From: Sparassis latifolia
Taxonomy: Eukaryota > Basidiomycota > Agaricomycetes > Polyporales > Sparassidaceae
Reading direction: 5' to 3'
Assembly (NCBI GenBank): GCA_018466975.1
Contig: CM031563.1
Coordinates: forward strand, 1,054,001-1,118,000
DNA length: 64,000 nucleotides
Shown here piece by piece: positions 8,994 to 63,324 of the stretch. The notes beneath the pieces were generated by a model. That model did not search any database. It saw nothing but the letters and a program-made list of their open reading frames with translations, and had not been told where the DNA came from. A program made the translations under genes and the position numbers. How positions within the stretch are numbered: position 1 is the stretch's first letter; each line of letters opens with the position of its first letter.

Positions 8994-11900
8994 TCAATGA
9001 TTTTCGGGTCCGATAAAACGTGCGGTTGCAGCGATACGGAAGTTCAAGGGAACAACGGTGTGTCTGTATTATCTGCGTTAGCAAAACCTCACCGTTTCTC
9101 GTACAAACGTACTCGTAGAATTTTTGGACTCCCTCGCCTTGCATGACCACGACGTCACCCTGGTCAAAAGATATTCAGACAAAGTAGATTTTCTGTCATA
9201 CACACTTACATGGCGCAAAAAGAGTTTCAGAGCAAGTCTGCTTGATCCATTTCCCGGCTTGTCGTCATACTGGGAGTGGAGACGGAAATACATATGCGCT
9301 GCAGAACCGAGGGATAAGGCCGCAACAGTGGGACCTAATCCTCGCTCGCTGTCGCTGTGGAACTAGAGGAAGAGTATTTGACCATGTGTCCTACAACAAC
9401 GTTATGTACTCACGGCCATTCTCTGTTTCTCCATGTATGCAGCACTGAGGACCTCGTTGAATTGGGATCGCAGATCTAGAGCATCTAGCATTCGGCGCTG
9501 GATCAACTCAAGAGCATGATGAACAGCGGAAGGTGCCTTGTCCCAAGCGACCGTGTTATCGGCGCCCCCAACATACTTCAGCTCTGTCAGCTAGGGCTCA
9601 CTGTACGATCATGATGCGCACCTGGTATGGCTCTCCAGCTGGAAGATTTCAACCAGTTAATACAAAATTCTGAAAGGATTACCGACGGCATGCTTACAAT
9701 TCTGGGAGAAGTAGTTGGTCAACAGGGTACCCCTACCTGTGGTCATGATCAGATCAAGAATGTGTGGATGTACCAACATGCATACATTTGTGCTAAAGTT
9801 TTTATGAGACTCTAGTGCGTTTCATAGAAGAGAGAACGTACGCTTCTCAGAGGCCACCTTCGGAACAGAAGTTCCCCCCCAACCGCTTGTTCCTGATATT
9901 CTCTGAAAATAGCATCGGCATCCCGGTTTGCAATAGAACTGCCAAGAATAAGGTATATATGTCCACTGGGATATAAGGTCAATGCGCAAATTGGTATGGC
10001 AGGTCGCGCTGAAACTCACCGACCGTATGGCAGAATATAATGATGACAAGGAAGAAAACCCGCTCCGTGATTGTAAAACTGCATGTGGGGGAGGATGATA
10101 CCTGAGGATTGAAAGACACTTAAACATGAGAGGGTACATCCTCTCCGAAAAGACATTTGGTCCCACCAGAATCCTCTCCGACAAAATGATGCATGTAAGA
10201 CTCCATGTTCTTTTGATACCAGAACTCCTTCGGTTCCCGAAACCTCCCGATCACCTTGTAAGTCTCCTGAGTACAGAAAGGAACCATTCAACTTCTCCCA
10301 AGGAAGCGGGTGAAATGGTTACTCACCCCACAATGTGCACACTCCCAATGTTCCCATTTGTATCTACCTAATGAGAGACATAATCACGACGAAGCTTAAG
10401 AGCCTTACCTGCTTGATAACCGGCCGCATCGCACACAGTGCCAGCCCTTGCAGAAAAGACGAGTCGTTGTGACGCCATTCTGCGCTTTTGTAGCGGGCAC
10501 GGGAGGTCGGAGGTCATCGAACTTCTCATGCTGACAAGGAAGCAACTCGAGGAATTTCTCCGAGTATGCCAATCCCATGGACGGGGGTACACCTGACGAT
10601 GTCTTCCAGAATGCGGTACAACTCGGTGTCAAACACATCCAGCGGCCATCGTAGACAAGAGGAGATTTAGTGTTGCACCGTGAGCATACACGACTGGTAG
10701 CTTCATCTTCAACAGAGCTGGCCATGGAATGAGTTAGAGCACAAAGACCTCCACACCAGGCAACCTATCTCACATTGAGGGTGGCACGGTTGCTGTACTA
10801 TCATCTACGACAAACCAACATAAGGCGGGAAACCGTGTGGTCTACGATCAGGAGCATACCACTAGCCAGTACTAGCTCGCATATTGCCGCTGCATGAGCA
10901 GCACCGTATTGGTAAGAATGCGAAACCTTTAGGTGGCGTGAAATAACGTACAAGCCTGAGATGGGATCCACCAGGGGTCACCCTGTTGATCGCACCATCG
11001 GAAGGCAAACTTGTATCGAACAACATAACCTCTCGAATTTTTTGCAGGCTGGCGTTCAGCTGAGTGCGGCGTCAGTTAGGTCAGGGCATTTGGGAGGAAA
11101 GAACGGACCCCATGCATGTCTAATATGATAGTAGCCGAGCACAACGTAGGAGTATCCCTTCGCTGTAAGATCATACGGAAAAAGTTTGTACTTATCGTCG
11201 ATAAGGAGTACAACTGGACGCTGCAGTCTAAATGTATTCAAGAGCGCTCGAACCGATTTGTCTTCTGCTAGCTGATCATTTGCTTCTTGCACCGTGCTTT
11301 TCCCACCTTTCGTATGGATACTCTCCGCCTTCCCTCCACTAGTAGTACGGACTTACTCAGTGTCGATGTAGACGCATAAAATAATCGACGCACCCATGAG
11401 AGACAATCAGACGTCCGTCACGATGAAAGACATCGCGGCTAGAACCAGAGTGCTGGATCGATTACAACACGTAGACAGCATAACTGCATTCTTACCTTGA
11501 CGAGAACGCGCTCAACAAGTAACCTTTCACCATGTCCTTCAAGAAATAAACACCACCCTGATATGAACGGAACCAGTCAAAGGCTTCGCATACTTCTTGT
11601 CGGGACTGTAGACATAATAGTGTCAGCAATGAGTGGTACGCTAGGGATCACTGTACCAACCTGAGCCCAGATAGGCGGTAAGATCTCCAAGGGAGGTCTC
11701 GGACGGGCATCGTGTATCTCGTTGGATGCGCAAACGGTTGACGCCAGTGGAAGTACTAGCTCTATATCTGATGACTTATCTGCCGGTACCTGCGCCAATT
11801 CTTGCTCGTGTTCGTCTTCGCCCTCCGCTCCTCCCTCCCAGTCACTTCCATGTTCTACGTTGGTACTGAGCGCATGGTGCAAAAGCGCCTCGCTGGCAGC

Positions 11901-13964
11901 GTGGCGAATGACACTGTCAACTTCGTCCAACGTTTGCGGCTGATTGGACTTTTTGGTCACAAGCGGTACAGGAAGTCGCACATGCGCTGCCTTTTTGGAA
12001 GATCTTCTGGGTAGTCTGATTGTAAGTCGTTGAGAATTGTCAGTGACCGGCTGGATGACGTCGGCACTCTGTAGAGATTCGCGGAGTCGCTTTCGTGTCC
12101 GCCTAGCGATGGAAGGAGGCTCGCGAGGAGCAGTGACATCCTCCGAAGCCACAATTTCGGGTTCTGACCCCAGTCCAGCTTGAGGTATCCCGGACTGCAT
12201 CGCCGAATTTCCAACGGTGGGTTCCGAATGCTCAGGCACAGCATCTGCAGGAGGCTGTAACTGCACACCGGCCTGCTGCTGTCGACAAGAAGACCCCCTT
12301 CCTCCTCTGCATGCCATCTGGGCCTCCTCTGGACGTGTCGCGTGCCCACCGTCCTCAGCATCCCTGTAGCGACGACGTTTTTGAGCAGGACCGGCCAGTG
12401 GAACGTCTGGCCTTGCATCCTTCAACTTTTTATTGGCAGTTTTCTTCGCTGAAGAGCGAGTCACGCGAACCTTGTCAACAGCTGCAGAAGGGAAATTCCG
12501 AAGTCTCCCCTTGATATTGTCGCTCTGGTGCTGTTCCGGCACAGATATAGCAGAGGTCGCTGCGTCCGCTGCAGGAGATGGAACTGCGGAACATGGTTTC
12601 TGCGGTGCGATCGCATTCCTCTTCCGTGGGTTCGTGGCTTTAGGTGGCGCTATTATCGCTGAGAGGGTTGCACCTATATTAGCGACCTTCGATTTCTTCG
12701 CCGCTTTCTTGCGATTAGTAGACCTTGTCTGTGGCTTCTCTCTCAGATTGTTCTTGAGTGCTTCGTGCTTAGCATCCGAAGGAGCCTGCGATTTCGGAGT
12801 GCCCAAGAAATCTTCCTTGAGTTTTGCCTCATACAAGGTCTCCCTCTCCATCAACTTTGTGAGATTCTGGCGATTGGATGCAGTCCTTCCGGGGTTTCGC
12901 CTCCTGCCTGCGCCATTCGCATTGCATTCGACATCAAATACGAGTTGTTCAGCTGGAGGACCGTCCTCTTTGAGAGATTCATCGGATGTGAGCTCACTGA
13001 GCGAAGAAGGATCGTCTTCGTTCGTACGAGCGTCGTTCATGGGGGCAACACCTGATACAACTCTTGAGGCCGTGTACGCAAACTGCGAGACAGGGATGTC
13101 GTCTGAAGAAGAGTGGGAAGAGCTAGAAGGTTGTTCGTTGATAGCTTTACGTTTGTTGCTCTGTTCTTCACCAATGTTCTGCTTCTCGAGAGGTGAAGAA
13201 GGCCCATACGCGACTCCGATGACTTGAGCAGACGCTGAGAGCAGTAGCTGGGCATCCGGAATGGGTATGTCAACGGTACGTTCGAAAGAAGAATGAAGGT
13301 TGTCTGGGGTTGCGCGAGTAGTGGCATGCTGAGGAACTTCGTTTGTGGGTCTGTCGTCTTCCCCTTCACTAACCTCAGCATCGTACGCGTCCTCAGCATT
13401 ACGAGACAAATGCTTTGGGCGTCTCCGACGATTTCCCCGGTGGTGGGTAGGAGAGCCTGCATGTGCACCAGAATCGGAACCGACAGGCAGTAGCACACGA
13501 GCATGTGCGCCGGACCCCCAGACGCGTTCGTCTACGAAATATTGAAAACCACGCGACTTGCGCTCCTGCAGAAGGTACCGTTTGGCCTCATCGCGGTCGC
13601 CGTTGTAAAGGCGCCAATAGAAGTCGATGAAAATCTCCAGTTCCGGAGAGTCTGCGAGGACGAGAGTGTTCTGGACGGACGTTTCCTCTTCCGGGCTTGC
13701 AGCGAATGCCAGCCTCAACCAAGCTTGTATCGCTCCCTATAAGACGCGTCAGAACGCGTCAATCGTAATCATGGTTAGCGCGACTGCACTTGCACCTACA
13801 CTCACCGCCTCTTTCTGAAAATCAGCGCGTGGAGTTACGCAAAACCAATCAGTTTTTCCCCTGCCGCGTCTGTTGGGGAGATCCGCACTATGGACTGCGA
13901 ACAGCGTCGAGAGTGGTTCATCCTGTAGAAGATCCTCATCGTCCCAGGACCGAGGCTGCCTCAT
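8994..13964 (-). CDS. Fusion: SRA/YDG-like module, zinc ribbons, AlkB-like 2OG-Fe(II) dioxygenase
   Basis: Exon 1 (13806-13964) codes MRQPRSWDDEDLL. Exon 2 (11661-13736) is a long disordered basic region. Exon 3 starts at 11605 with SRQEVCEAFDWFRSYQGGVY. Next come LIVSHGGGKAESIHTKGG, SVRALLNTFRLQRPVVLL, GYSYVVLGYYHIRHAWAE and VVRYKFAFRWC, whose order recalls a diverged SRA/YDG domain. Two zinc ribbons follow (CSRCNTKS..CLTPSC near 10690-10610; CVRCGR..WECAHCG near 10450-10325). The C-terminus is a 2OG-Fe(II) oxygenase: HSD (His codon 9357-9359, Asp 9351-9353), distal His in FYEHTVVPLNF (9060-9062) and RIAATAR, the R-x5-R of AlkB proteins. AlkB enzymes remove alkyl groups from nucleic-acid bases by oxidation. 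I recall whole proteins of this architecture in Agaricomycetes. The link between 10985 and 10700 could not be spliced cleanly, so two adjacent genes (boundary near 10725) remain possible. Confidence 0.75.
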
Positions 13965-31932: not shown

Positions 31933-33857
31933 ATGACCTCTCTCGACACTCTTATTCCCGTCATTTACCATGAAAAACAGCAGCCAGGGTCGATGCTATG
32001 TGCTCAACATGCGTTGAACAACCTCCTCCGTACGCCACCTGATGCCGTTAAAACGTGTTCATTGACCTGAGAAGGACTGATTCGATACAGAGGGAAATTT
32101 TGTTAGTTCACTTCTTCCCAGTTTTTTCCCGATGGCTATAGATGCTCAAAGATGTCTGGGGTTAGTTCACCGCTCCTGATCTATCAGCCATAGCCGAATC
32201 TCTAGATGCCTTGGAAGAGAGCTATGACGCGGACCGTGGACGTGCAAGCACGAATATGGACGATACAGGTATACTTCATCTGTTGATATCGGGCTTCCAG
32301 CAAGCTGAGGACCTCTTAGGTTTTTTCTCCGTGCAGGTGCTAGAGAATGCGCTGCAAGTGTGGGGACTTACGTATGCATCCCCACCTCTTATTACCTCTT
32401 AGATCGCGTATTAATTAGTTTGCGTGTCTAGACTCATCCGATGGCGAAGCGAAGCCATGCGCCCTTACCAACAATTTCCACAGTACGTCCTATAAAATCC
32501 GAACCAAATACGTTTTATCAACTTGCACTATCATGTCAGGACGCAGATGGCTTTCATACTCAATCATGAGCAACACTGGCTTACTCTGCGCCGCTTCGGG
32601 CACGTTTCACCCGCTCCCTTGCACGCTGATTCTGGCGGAGGACATTGGTTCAACCTCAATTCGTTCCTGGAAGCACCGCAGTGGATCAGCAACACATATC
32701 TCGGCATGGTCTTACAACAGTCCGAAGCTGAGGGTACGCTGAGCATATATGCATTACTCTCGTCTTTGACTCAATTTCGCCCACCAGGCTACTCTGTGTT
32801 TGCTGTAATCCAGACCGATCCTGAAGGACCCCTTGCACTTCCACGCACAGAGGCCGATGAGTTGGCGGCGTCAATTCCCGAATCGTCTGCCCCAAGTTCT
32901 GGAAACCGCATTTCGACTTCCAGAACACCACCGTCGTCAGCGGCGCTTCATGGATTCGAGGACGAGGACATGGAGCTACAGGCGGCCCTACAGGCATCGC
33001 TCACGGGCTCCCCACACGATTTTCTCCATCCGCCTTCATCAGCGCCTTCATCGTCGTCAGCCTATCGCGAGGCAAACCGTGGTGTACCTCCCGCGGCGCA
33101 GTACCCGTATTACAACCATGGCGAACCTCCGGAGCTGGAACCAGTAGACGACGAGGACGACGAAGAGGGCGACGCCGCGCCTATGGATCCCGTGGCAGCT
33201 AGCATGGCTCGAAACCGCGCCATCATGGAGCGCATGCGGCGCGAGCAAGAAGCGGCACTCCGGGAGGGATATGAACAGGAGGCGGCACGGGTCGAATGGG
33301 CCGCTGCGCACAGACCCCCTCAGGCCGTACAGGAGCACGATGACTACGAAGAGATGCTCCGGCGCGCGATTGAAGAGAGCGAGGCTGAAGCTAGGGTCAG
33401 AGACAGACCCGCCACGCAGCACACGGATGAAGGTGAGGCCGCTGACGCTGACGAGAACGAGGACGAGGACATGGACGACGAGGATTATGCGCCGCCTGTT
33501 GTTCCGCCCCGGATACCACATCCGTCTTCCTCGTACGGCGCGCGAGTGTACGACGACGAAGACGCGGAGCTGCAGGCGGCACTGAAGGCGTCGTTGGAGA
33601 GCGTTCCAGAAGATTTTCGGTTTCCCAGTCCCCGTCCTCCGATCCGACCACTGCCTCCTAGCTCCGGCGCGTCCAGTCTTTCCACGCCACGAGAGCAGCA
33701 AACTCCGCACGGTACGGCAACTCCACAGCGACCGGAAGAGGACACAGAAGACGCAGAGACGCAGTCCGAGGCGGAATCAAGTAGTGCGGCGGAACCTGAG
33801 GAACAGTTGAGCGTAGAAGAGATTAGGAAACGACGGCTGGCAAAGTTTGGTGGATGA
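31933..33857 (+). CDS. Ataxin-3-like deubiquitinase (Josephin domain plus three UIMs)
   Basis: This cysteine protease trims ubiquitin chains. The Josephin domain begins VIYHEKQQPGSMLCAQHALN, with the oxyanion Gln and catalytic Cys. It continues LSAIAESLDALEESYDADRG, NMDDTGFFSVQVLENALQVW, then NHEQHWLTLRRFG with the catalytic His and HWFNLNSFLEAPQWIS with the Asn. It ends YLGMVLQQSEAEGYSVFAVI. About 14 extra residues (HVSPAPLHADSGGG) lie between the His and Asn motifs. The C-terminal half has three ubiquitin-interacting motifs: MELQAALQASLTG (near 32974), YEEMLRRAIEESEAE (near 33346) and AELQAALKASLES (near 33565). Acidic linkers separate them and the end is EEIRKRRLAKFGG. Five or more introns before 32780. 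No polyglutamine tract is present. Confidence 0.93.
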
Positions 33858-59400: not shown

Positions 59401-62400
59401 ATGTCGTCCTCGTCGACCACCGCCTGTTCGAGATCGCCTTCACCGTCACCAGCGACACCAGATTCGTCAGACACGCTCGAACCAGTTGTCACTCAGGAGG
59501 AGCTCGTGGCTTGGTGTAATTCACTATCGTCCGGCTTTCTCGTCGGAGATGAAGCGCAGTTCCTCGACAACGACAAGAGGGAGCAAGGACAAATCCTGGA
59601 CTTAGAGGACTTGTTGCAAGTCACTGCGTATGAGGAGTGCGTACTTGTTAATTGGCATACGTGTGACGCTGCAACAGACATTCCGTCCGTAGCAGCTCTC
59701 CCCCGCCCGCTCAGGAGTACAAGTTCCCGTCCCCCGATTCTGCTGCTCTTTCTGGTGCATCGTCGCCATCGTCTCTCGAAATCTCCGATTTACTTGCGCG
59801 CCCGCGTGGCTCGGGCTCAATGAAGCCGATCCCTCCCCCACCTTCGCAACCTCGCAGAGATCCCTCCATCGTTGCACAGCGTGTGGTCTATCCGTCGAAG
59901 GACTCATGCTACAAGTGCGTCACAGGCTATCTTACTTCTATCGTTAGCAGCTAATGACGCTTGTCTTAGTCTTCCTATCCTGATCCCCAGCATCCCCGAA
60001 GGCGGTACCAAATCTCGGGTTGAGACCCAGGTGCGATTGACCGTCGACTTAGCTCATGCGAGCGCGTCTTCAGGAGAGCCCTTCAAGTATGACCGAGTAG
60101 GAAGTTGGAAGTGGCTCAGATTGCCCAAGGGCACCTCCACCAAGAGGAGAACGCGTAAGGAGGGCAAAGTCGGTGAGTGCGAGCGTATCTTCAACAACGT
60201 ACGAAAATTCCTAATTACTTACATTTTCATTCCTAGAAACACAAGTAGACGACACACTCTATCTTACGGCCGAAGTGACGTGTGCATCTTCTCCTCATAC
60301 TCCTGTGACCTGCTGCGCGAGTTGTCAAACGCGAGAGGTCCGTATATGCTATCTATTTTCTTCTAACTCTCATTCATGTCTTTGTATAGGCAAAGAGAGT
60401 TGCGAGAAAAATTGCAGCGCGTGTCAGGCCCGCTCGTTCTGATTCAGACTCTCCGGATGAGGCTAGGACCATCCCTGGGCGAGGCAAACACGAAGATACC
60501 TCAAATCTCCTCCAATTCAACTGCCCTGAAGTAATGGATTTCTCCACTGGTTCGGTGGTCCTTCCTCTGCGTATCACTTGCTACTGCCGTCACCATCGGG
60601 AGAAGGTGGGGTTCAACGTGCACTTCTCTATGTTGGACCGCACGGGACGCATCGTGGGGACAGGAACAACCAGGCCAATCATGATCACCGACGACCACAA
60701 GAGCACAGGCGTCAATTCCAAGTCGGCCACTCTGTTGGGTGGTTTCGAAAGGTCGCAGATTGACCGGTCTTCCAGGGTTGCAGGCGACTCAGAGAAGCGA
60801 CCTACGAAGCGGAAGATTCGTGAAGGATCCGACCGCACCAAGAAGCGGACTAAGCCTTACGATGTTGGCCGCAGTGCTTGCCGAGGTTCCCAAAACACCA
60901 GCGATGGCAGTCTGGATTCACCTAAAACACCTAGTTCTACCTTCGTGAGCAGACCAACGTCCCCTCTGCACTCTCTTGCGTCAAGTGTGCTCTCGCAGCC
61001 GGGCCCGAGCAGACAACTCACGTCAAGTCGTTTGGATCACAGTCGTACTCACTCAGCCTCCACGGCTGTTGAGCCAGTATTCGATATTTCTCAGTCTGTC
61101 GGACAGCTGTCGTCAACAAGGTTCGATCCGGATATCAGTCTACCTTCACAAATTAGTGTCCAGAGCGTCTCGCTTGATCAATTGGCAAACTCGTTTTTAC
61201 CTACCACTCCTTCCTCGCCGATTCCATTGGCCCTTAATCCAGTCCAGACTTTGAACGTCCCTCGACCGCCGTCAATGTCATTTACACTATTTAAGCATGA
61301 CCCTCCTCCATCAATTTCGAGTCTTCCTCCCCCAAGGATACACCGTCTGATTCCGTCGTCTGGTCCTACGTACGGTGGAATCGAAGTGACTGTGCTAGGC
61401 GCCAATTTCCATACTTCTATGCAGTTAAACTGTGTCTTTGGTGGTTCACCAGCGAGTTCGACCCAACGCTGGAGTGACAACACCTTGGTGTGTCTACTGC
61501 CACCCAGTACGAACCCGGGTGTTGTTCCGGTCTGGTTCGATGGCATACCGAAAGAGGAGAACGGTACTCCTGCTTGCCTGTTTGCATACACCGATGAGAC
61601 CGATAGAGCATTGTGCGTTTTTTGGTCCTTTTTTGGCGTGCATTTGGTGTTACTAATAAGATGATATTCAGGATGGAACTAGCTCTGCAAGTGGTAGGGC
61701 TGAAGATGACCGGCAAGATTGAGGATGCTCGGAATGTCGCCATGCGTATTGTGAGCAACACGGACTCGAACGACTCCGGAAGCGGCATAGCAGCAAGTGA
61801 TGCCATGCAGCTTGCTAATGATAGTGCCACGCGATCTCTCGATATTCGTCGTGTTCTCCTTAGCCGTGCTGGTGACAACGGCGACTTTGAATCACTCATC
61901 TTGGATTTCCTCTCCATCCTTGATGTTCCCGTGCCTGTACAAACAGCTTCGCTTTCGTCTTCCATCTCCCACCAGTCTGGAAGTGGGCAGACTCTGCTTC
62001 ATCTGGCAACCTTCTTGAACTTCCCGACCCTCGTATCCTTCTTAGTATCTCACGAGATCGACGTCGATGCTCGTGATAGGAATGGTTGCACCGCTCTGTG
62101 CCTAGCAGCCATCGTGAAATCGACTCAATGCGCTAAGATTCTCACTGACGCCGGTGCATCCTTTGATATTGTCAATGCGTGGGGTAAGACACCAGCGCAG
62201 ATTGCACCGTCCGGCTTCTTCGACTTTGTATCATCCGAGAGTGGCCACACCGACCAAGGTTGCGATGCTGATGACAGTCTTGACGATGAATCGGCCTGGG
62301 GGGATGTGGAGGACCACACCGATGACGAAGTGGAGGTCAAGCAGGTAAGACGTCATCATCCTCGCAAGTTCCTCCACCGGATGCGCAAAACTATACATCC

Positions 62401-63324
62401 TCCTGCTGAGTCTGACAAGGACACGGAGCAACGTCCCGCAGCTACGCAGAAGTCAGAGGAGAAGAAGGAGCTGAAGCTTCAAGACGAGAAGCAGGCCGTC
62501 GCTCCATTCATGGAGACTTTATTCCGTACCTTGGCTCAGTTGCAGCACCCCCAAGGAATGATCCCAAATATGCCAAACCTACCGCCTCTTCACTTACCTC
62601 AAATTCGTGGTATCCCGGGTATTCCGGCGTGGAATGCTCTTTCCCAAATGCCTGCTGTCTTCCCAGTATTTGTACCGATCCCTGCCTTGTCGGCTATTTT
62701 TGGCGAAAAGCGCGCTGGGGAAGTGCAGTCGGAAGGAACTCCAGGCACCAATGGTCAAGCATGGTTGGGTATGCTTACTGTTCAGGATTGGCGAGCGATC
62801 TGGGAAAAGTGGATGACGCAAGTCTCCATGTCAGCGAAGGAAACCACGGAGTTTCCGCCTCCTGCATATACACCGAGGTCTGAAGGAACCGATGCTACCG
62901 CAGTCGAAGTACGCGAAGACGATTTACCCTCTGTGGGTGCTTCGTCCGCAACCGCCGACAGAGTCGTTGCTCGCCATGTTGGATACAATGAAGACATGCC
63001 TATACCTGAACAGGAAGTTAACGCTTATGCGTATAGACCAGCGCGTAAGCCCTCCCGTAGGTCGCAGAAGAAGAGTAAGTTGCTACTCGCTGTAGAGTTC
63101 GCGGATTGTTAATTTCATCTGTCTGCATTGTAGGTGACCGTATGCTTGTGCTGTTCTGGATTCCAATTCTTCTCAGTGAGTTTTCTGATCGTCTCGTAAC
63201 TGCTGCTGCTACTTACTGACGGTTCATTCTAGTTGGTGTTGCGTGGGCTTTCCTGCACTTCGCGCGCGTTGCTTTTCATGCTACGAGGGCAGTCGTCGGC
63301 TATAAAGCCGGACTGCGGGTATGA
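59401..63324 (+). CDS. MGA2: Mga2/Spt23-type ER-tethered transcription factor (IPT/TIG, ankyrin, C-terminal TM)
   Basis: Yeast Mga2 and Spt23 are ER-anchored precursors freed by ubiquitin-dependent proteasome processing when membrane lipids are too saturated. They then induce the OLE1 desaturase. The order here is identical. A disordered N-terminus (MSSSSTTACSRSPSPSPATP) comes first. The conserved block LPILIPSIPEGGTKSRVETQ follows, then VDLAHASASSGEPFKYDRVG. Next are VMDFSTGSVVLPLRITCYCR, a Ser-rich linker, and the IPT/TIG domain IHRLIPSSGPTYGGIEVTVL, GANFHTSMQLNCVFGG. Ankyrin repeats follow: GQTLLHLATFLNFPTLVSFL, DRNGCTALCLAAIVKSTQCA, AWGKTPAQIAP. A C-terminal membrane helix, MLVLFWIPILLIGVAWAFLH, ends the protein with GYKAGLRV. 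Introns lie near 59640-59710, 59916-59970, 60174-60237, 60341-60388, 61614-61672, 63076-63132 and 63176-63232. Confidence 0.93.

Follow-up and report, generated by a model that had tools for sequence, protein, structure and literature searches.

Results

The window analysed here is a 64,000-nucleotide stretch of the Sparassis latifolia genome (assembly GCA_018466975.1, contig CM031563.1, positions 1,054,001 to 1,118,000 of the forward strand). On its minus strand lies a gene whose product is predicted to join an SRA-fold domain, two zinc-ribbon-like modules and an AlkB-type 2-oxoglutarate (2OG)-Fe(II) dioxygenase. The ATG (13964) and the end of the TGA (8994) of our spliced model coincide exactly with the bounds given in an earlier reading of the same letters, the original prediction. 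GT-AG introns are found throughout the model, with consistent phases, and the spliced product is identical to the annotated S. crispa protein SCP_0308700 at 1,309 of 1,311 residues. Exons 7–9 were placed after the splice pattern of SCP_0308700 and the remaining exons were read from the sequence. In the model, exon 14 is a 7-base micro-exon (9792-9786) within the dioxygenase, required to keep a conserved HKCRG stretch in frame. No second copy of the gene was found in the genome searched (41.4 Mb, 22 contigs), in which all 10 matches of SCP_0308700 fall at this one locus. From the N terminus, the protein consists of a conserved module, a low-complexity linker, the SRA-like domain, two four-cysteine modules and the dioxygenase, as follows (conservation counts refer to the 86 aligned relatives described below).

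8994..13964, minus strand: whole gene, ATG to TGA; spliced model of 20 exons, 1,311 amino acids
13506..13964, minus strand: conserved N-terminal module, fold unassigned; residues ~1-130, with intron 13805-13737 inside; occupied in 72/86 relatives
11679..13505, minus strand: long linker of low complexity with abundant Ser, Lys and Arg; exon 2, read from the translation
10962..11678, minus strand: SRA-fold domain (predicted fold), residues ~740-906; coded by exons 3-6 and the last part of exon 2
10327..10717, minus strand: two zinc-ribbon-like four-Cys modules, residues 940-967 and 1022-1045; exons 9-10
8994..10266, minus strand: AlkB-type 2OG-Fe(II) dioxygenase domain; exons 11-20
9351..9359, minus strand: HxD iron-binding motif, here HSD; H in 85/86 and D in 85/86 relatives
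9018..9062, minus strand: distal His (codon 9062-9060) and R-x5-R (arginine codons 9038-9036 and 9020-9018); H in 83/86, first R in 83/86 and second R in 84/86 relatives

A database search returned 208 relatives, of which the best 120 were listed. The named ones among these are, we assume, all Agaricomycetes (Polyporales, Agaricales, Boletales, Russulales, Jaapiales and Hymenochaetales), three of the taxa having been looked up. Coprinopsis cinerea has an orthologue, CC1G_01939 (P0083). For the alignment, 86 of the 120 were chosen for near-full length, and the other 34, redundant or only partly covering the query, were removed manually; hence, counts out of 86 lean towards complete proteins. 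The removed set includes the six with less than 85% query coverage (P0068, P0093, P0111, P0112, P0116 and P0117) and the three that had no tag for the dioxygenase family PF13532 (P0039, P0101 and P0112). The SRA-like, cysteine and AlkB stretches lie within one annotated protein in 85 of the 86 aligned relatives, and the SRA-like and AlkB stretches do so in all 86, counts that rest on third-party gene predictions. This supports the original view that the parts form one gene, and a reading as two genes was rejected because the modules are joined in those 85 proteins. Before the selection for near-full length, 114 of the best 120 of 208 relatives spanned 85% or more of the query region. The spacing between the SRA-like domain and the first cysteine varies from 15 to 102 residues among the aligned relatives.

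Precomputed Pfam tags assign PF13532 to 117 of the best 120 of 208 relatives and nothing at all to the other 3. The SRA-like half is hardly labelled by such tags among the relatives listed, the SRA tag (PF02182) being found on two short relatives only (P0205 and P0216). The SRA-like domain also has 117 short relatives, and those of them that are named are presumably from Agaricomycetes too, judging from the names.

Since the fold listing of the whole model was filled by AlkB/FTO-type entries, the SRA-like domain was folded separately by AlphaFold (mean predicted local distance difference test score 82.5). Each of the 38 best Protein Data Bank (PDB) rows for this model is either a chain with an SRA domain or an oocyte lattice complex, and several of the SRA-bearing chains were solved with methylated DNA. 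Of the lattice rows within the 38, 12dl and 9sfp are UHRF1 entries, and 9w2m and 9xrl were not confirmed by name. The middle domain is thus predicted to have an SRA fold, in line with the original assignment. The Foldseek superpositions are loose: over the 18 rows with E up to 0.001, the root-mean-square deviation ranges from 4.6 to 9.5. The 50 rows listed for the model contain no RNA-binding PUA or ASCH entries, which by itself excludes nothing, and when the PDB was searched with the domain by sequence only, no SRA came up, the top match being a nanobody at E 0.23. Profiles were built from 39 of 82 SRA hits and from the pieces of 23 of 42 diverse relatives, and the hhalign alignment with the SRA profile is collinear. 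With E values as high as 10 allowed, the Pfam family SAD_SRA (PF02182) weakly matches 13 of 23 relatives, the lowest E being 4.9e-6; with E limited to 1, it is found in 3 of 10 proteins, at 26.4, 25.5 and 22.2 bits, below the cut-off of 30.7.

SRA domains elsewhere are coupled to a RING in UHRF1, to a SET domain in SUVH proteins and to nucleases in TagI and MspJI, whereas the SRA-like domain here is joined to a dioxygenase. Two cysteine quartets separate these partners. The first (C-x2-C-x13-C-x4-C) is complete in 81 and the second (C-x2-C-x13-C-x2-C) in 84 of the 86 aligned relatives, so that the two CxxC zinc ribbons proposed ahead of the dioxygenase reappear as conserved, putatively zinc-binding quartets. 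The cysteine-rich exon had no match when plasmids were searched with it.

The dioxygenase matches PF13532 with an E value of 5.4e-16 (59.8 bits against a cut-off of 31.2; 5.5e-15 for SCP_0308700). The HxD, distal His and R-x5-R motifs that had been read from the letters were all located on the minus strand, and the iron triad and both arginines occur together in 81 of the 86 relatives. All rows listed for fold searches with the whole model are AlkB/FTO-type entries, consistent with an AlkB fold. By similarity ranking the dioxygenase is closest to ALKBH3/2, with ALKBH3 as the nearest solved relative, and an ALKBH3/ALKBH2-like fold is predicted. TET/JBP (PF12851) gives no match, as a Pfam scan at E up to 10 returns only PF13532 and one chance match. 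Compared with ALKBH3 and ALKBH2, the fungal proteins add the SRA-like, cysteine and N-terminal modules and have mostly A-A-Y at the N-x-Y site and R-I-A at the R-x-N site, with the Tyr kept in 86/86.

Elsewhere in the genome, DNA methylase (PF00145) gives five exon-level matches at four loci, which by eye are DNMT1-, DNMT5- and DNMT2-like, and canonical SRA matches are found at two places. TET/JBP gives 44 exon-level matches (for example L020-L022), 32 of them above the cut-off, and many have near-equal scores, as a family that multiplied recently would be expected to show. There are three exon-level matches of the MT-A70 methylase and four of PF13532 (L001, L002, L003 and L004), of which L001 is ALKBH2-like (E 1.8e-18) and L003 weakly ALKBH3-like (E 0.003). 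The PF13532 search missed the window's own intron-split gene, so these profile counts are lower bounds. The genome therefore appears to have the usual writers and readers of 5-methylcytosine (5mC), with the present protein as an addition to them.

Discussion

We regard as evenly balanced the case for a protein, annotated as a single one across mushroom-forming fungi and composed of a predicted SRA-fold domain, two predicted zinc ribbons and an AlkB-type dioxygenase, that would dock on DNA and there strip N-methyl groups from bases. The SRA-like domain would anchor the protein to DNA, perhaps where a base is modified or flipped, and the catalytic domain would work like ALKBH2/3 on 3-methylcytosine (3mC) or 1-methyladenine. 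In the most specific version, the protein would clear the 3mC that DNA methyltransferases (DNMTs) make by mistake, at the places where these work. According to a review (PMC9246332), DNMTs make toxic 3mC off-target, and DNMTs and ALKB2 co-evolve, a relation that is weaker in fungi. A fusion of an SRA-like with an ALKBH2/3-like domain would fit this by-product model well. More tentatively, we propose a self-targeting DNA dealkylase, in which a module derived from SRA, its base pocket rebuilt, would sit on methylated DNA while an ALKBH2/3-type enzyme clears 3mC or other N-methyl marks that DNMTs leave behind. Such a methylation-reader fold joined to an ALKBH2/3-like enzyme would directly link the 3mC by-product of DNMTs with ALKB2-type repair, a link testable through one knock-out. 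In this view, the fusion would be kept as one protein across mushroom-forming fungi.

Several observations weigh against a dealkylase docked on DNA. SAD_SRA has no match in the window's own sequence, nor in any of 4 further full-length relatives. Of the SRA/YDG-like module originally proposed, the SRA-like fold is supported by the AlphaFold model, the PDB fold matches, the profile alignment and the weak SAD_SRA matches. The YDG part is not, as the signature occurs in 0/86 aligned relatives, which mostly have V-L-G instead. The domain is therefore filed as SRA-fold and not as a canonical SRA-YDG domain; it differs from the SRA (SAD/SRA, YDG) domains of UHRF1, SUVH5, TagI and MspJI in lacking YDG and in scoring under the Pfam cut-off. 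The columns of what we take to be the UHRF1 pocket (Y466, D469, Y478 and T479) are placed differently by two alignments, and with the YDG motif missing throughout, 5mC binding stays putative. In the dioxygenase, the Pfam match ends ahead of R-x5-R, and Asn is found at both presumed 2OG-contact positions (N-x-Y and R-x-N, which we assume to be usual but not universal in AlkB proteins) in 0/86 rows, mostly replaced by Ala. Finally, plain 3mC repair may be covered already, because a separate ALKBH2-like gene (L001) exists.

Among other explanations, an RNA demethylase fares best, although we consider it unlikely. Here the SRA-like fold and the zinc ribbons would bind RNA, and the ALKBH3-like domain would remove 1-methyladenosine or 3-methylcytidine. 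ALKBH3 also acts on RNA, and both this activity and its place as the nearest solved relative speak for such a function, as do the three MT-A70 matches in the genome. Against it, the fold of the middle module is matched best by SRA-bearing chains, several with methylated DNA in the structure.

Somewhat less probable still is an epigenetic eraser, as originally proposed, in which 5mC or another mark set on purpose would be read by the SRA-like module and then oxidised by the dioxygenase. The predicted SRA fold and the genome's matches to DNA methylase and to canonical SRA are consistent with it, and fungal DNA demethylases are described in a review (PMC13297926), namely the AlkB-family Dmt1, acting on N6-methyladenine (6mA), and the TET-family CcTet. 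PMC13297926 presents Dmt1, from the early-diverging fungus Mucor lusitanicus, as a relative of NMAD-1; like our protein, it is of the fungal AlkB family. CcTet and the fungal TET/JBP proteins resemble ours in being basidiomycete 2OG-Fe(II) dioxygenases with a proposed action on DNA bases, but they belong to PF12851 instead of PF13532, and their 44 exon-level matches in this genome contrast with the one locus here. That existing TET/JBP complement, the missing YDG motif and a dioxygenase nearest to ALKBH3/2 with no Tet_JBP match in Pfam all argue against the eraser. If 5mC or 6mA were nevertheless read and erased, the protein would define a new kind of DNA-mark eraser in fungi.

A weakened or dead dioxygenase serving as a DNA-bound scaffold or as a 2OG or oxygen sensor, to which the absence of the presumed contact Asn in 86/86 rows points, is improbable, given that the iron ligands and both arginines are kept together in 81/86, which is unexpected for a dead enzyme, and that the ALKBH2-like L001 likewise lacks these Asn (Q and S by eye), for which reason their loss was not treated as excluding an AlkB-type enzyme.

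To return to the proposed DNA dealkylase, the SRA-like domain and the AlkB dioxygenase are each of known kinds, and it is their combination that seems new. No SRA and AlkB fusion was found in the open-licence literature searched, and to our knowledge this would, if true, be the first case in which the fold of a DNA-methylation reader is physically joined to an AlkB eraser.

Other features of the protein and window

The N-terminal module could be a partner-binding domain; in SCP_0308700, the corresponding region (13964-13506 in the window) has no Pfam match at E up to 0.5. Away from the gene, an open reading frame on the plus strand (32523-33857) contains a Josephin domain (E 4.9e-18) and is a probable ataxin-3-type deubiquitinase. 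Also on the plus strand, two adjoining open reading frames (60534-63112) match SPT23/MGA2 DNA-binding, TIG and ankyrin domains, as in an SPT23/MGA2-type regulator.
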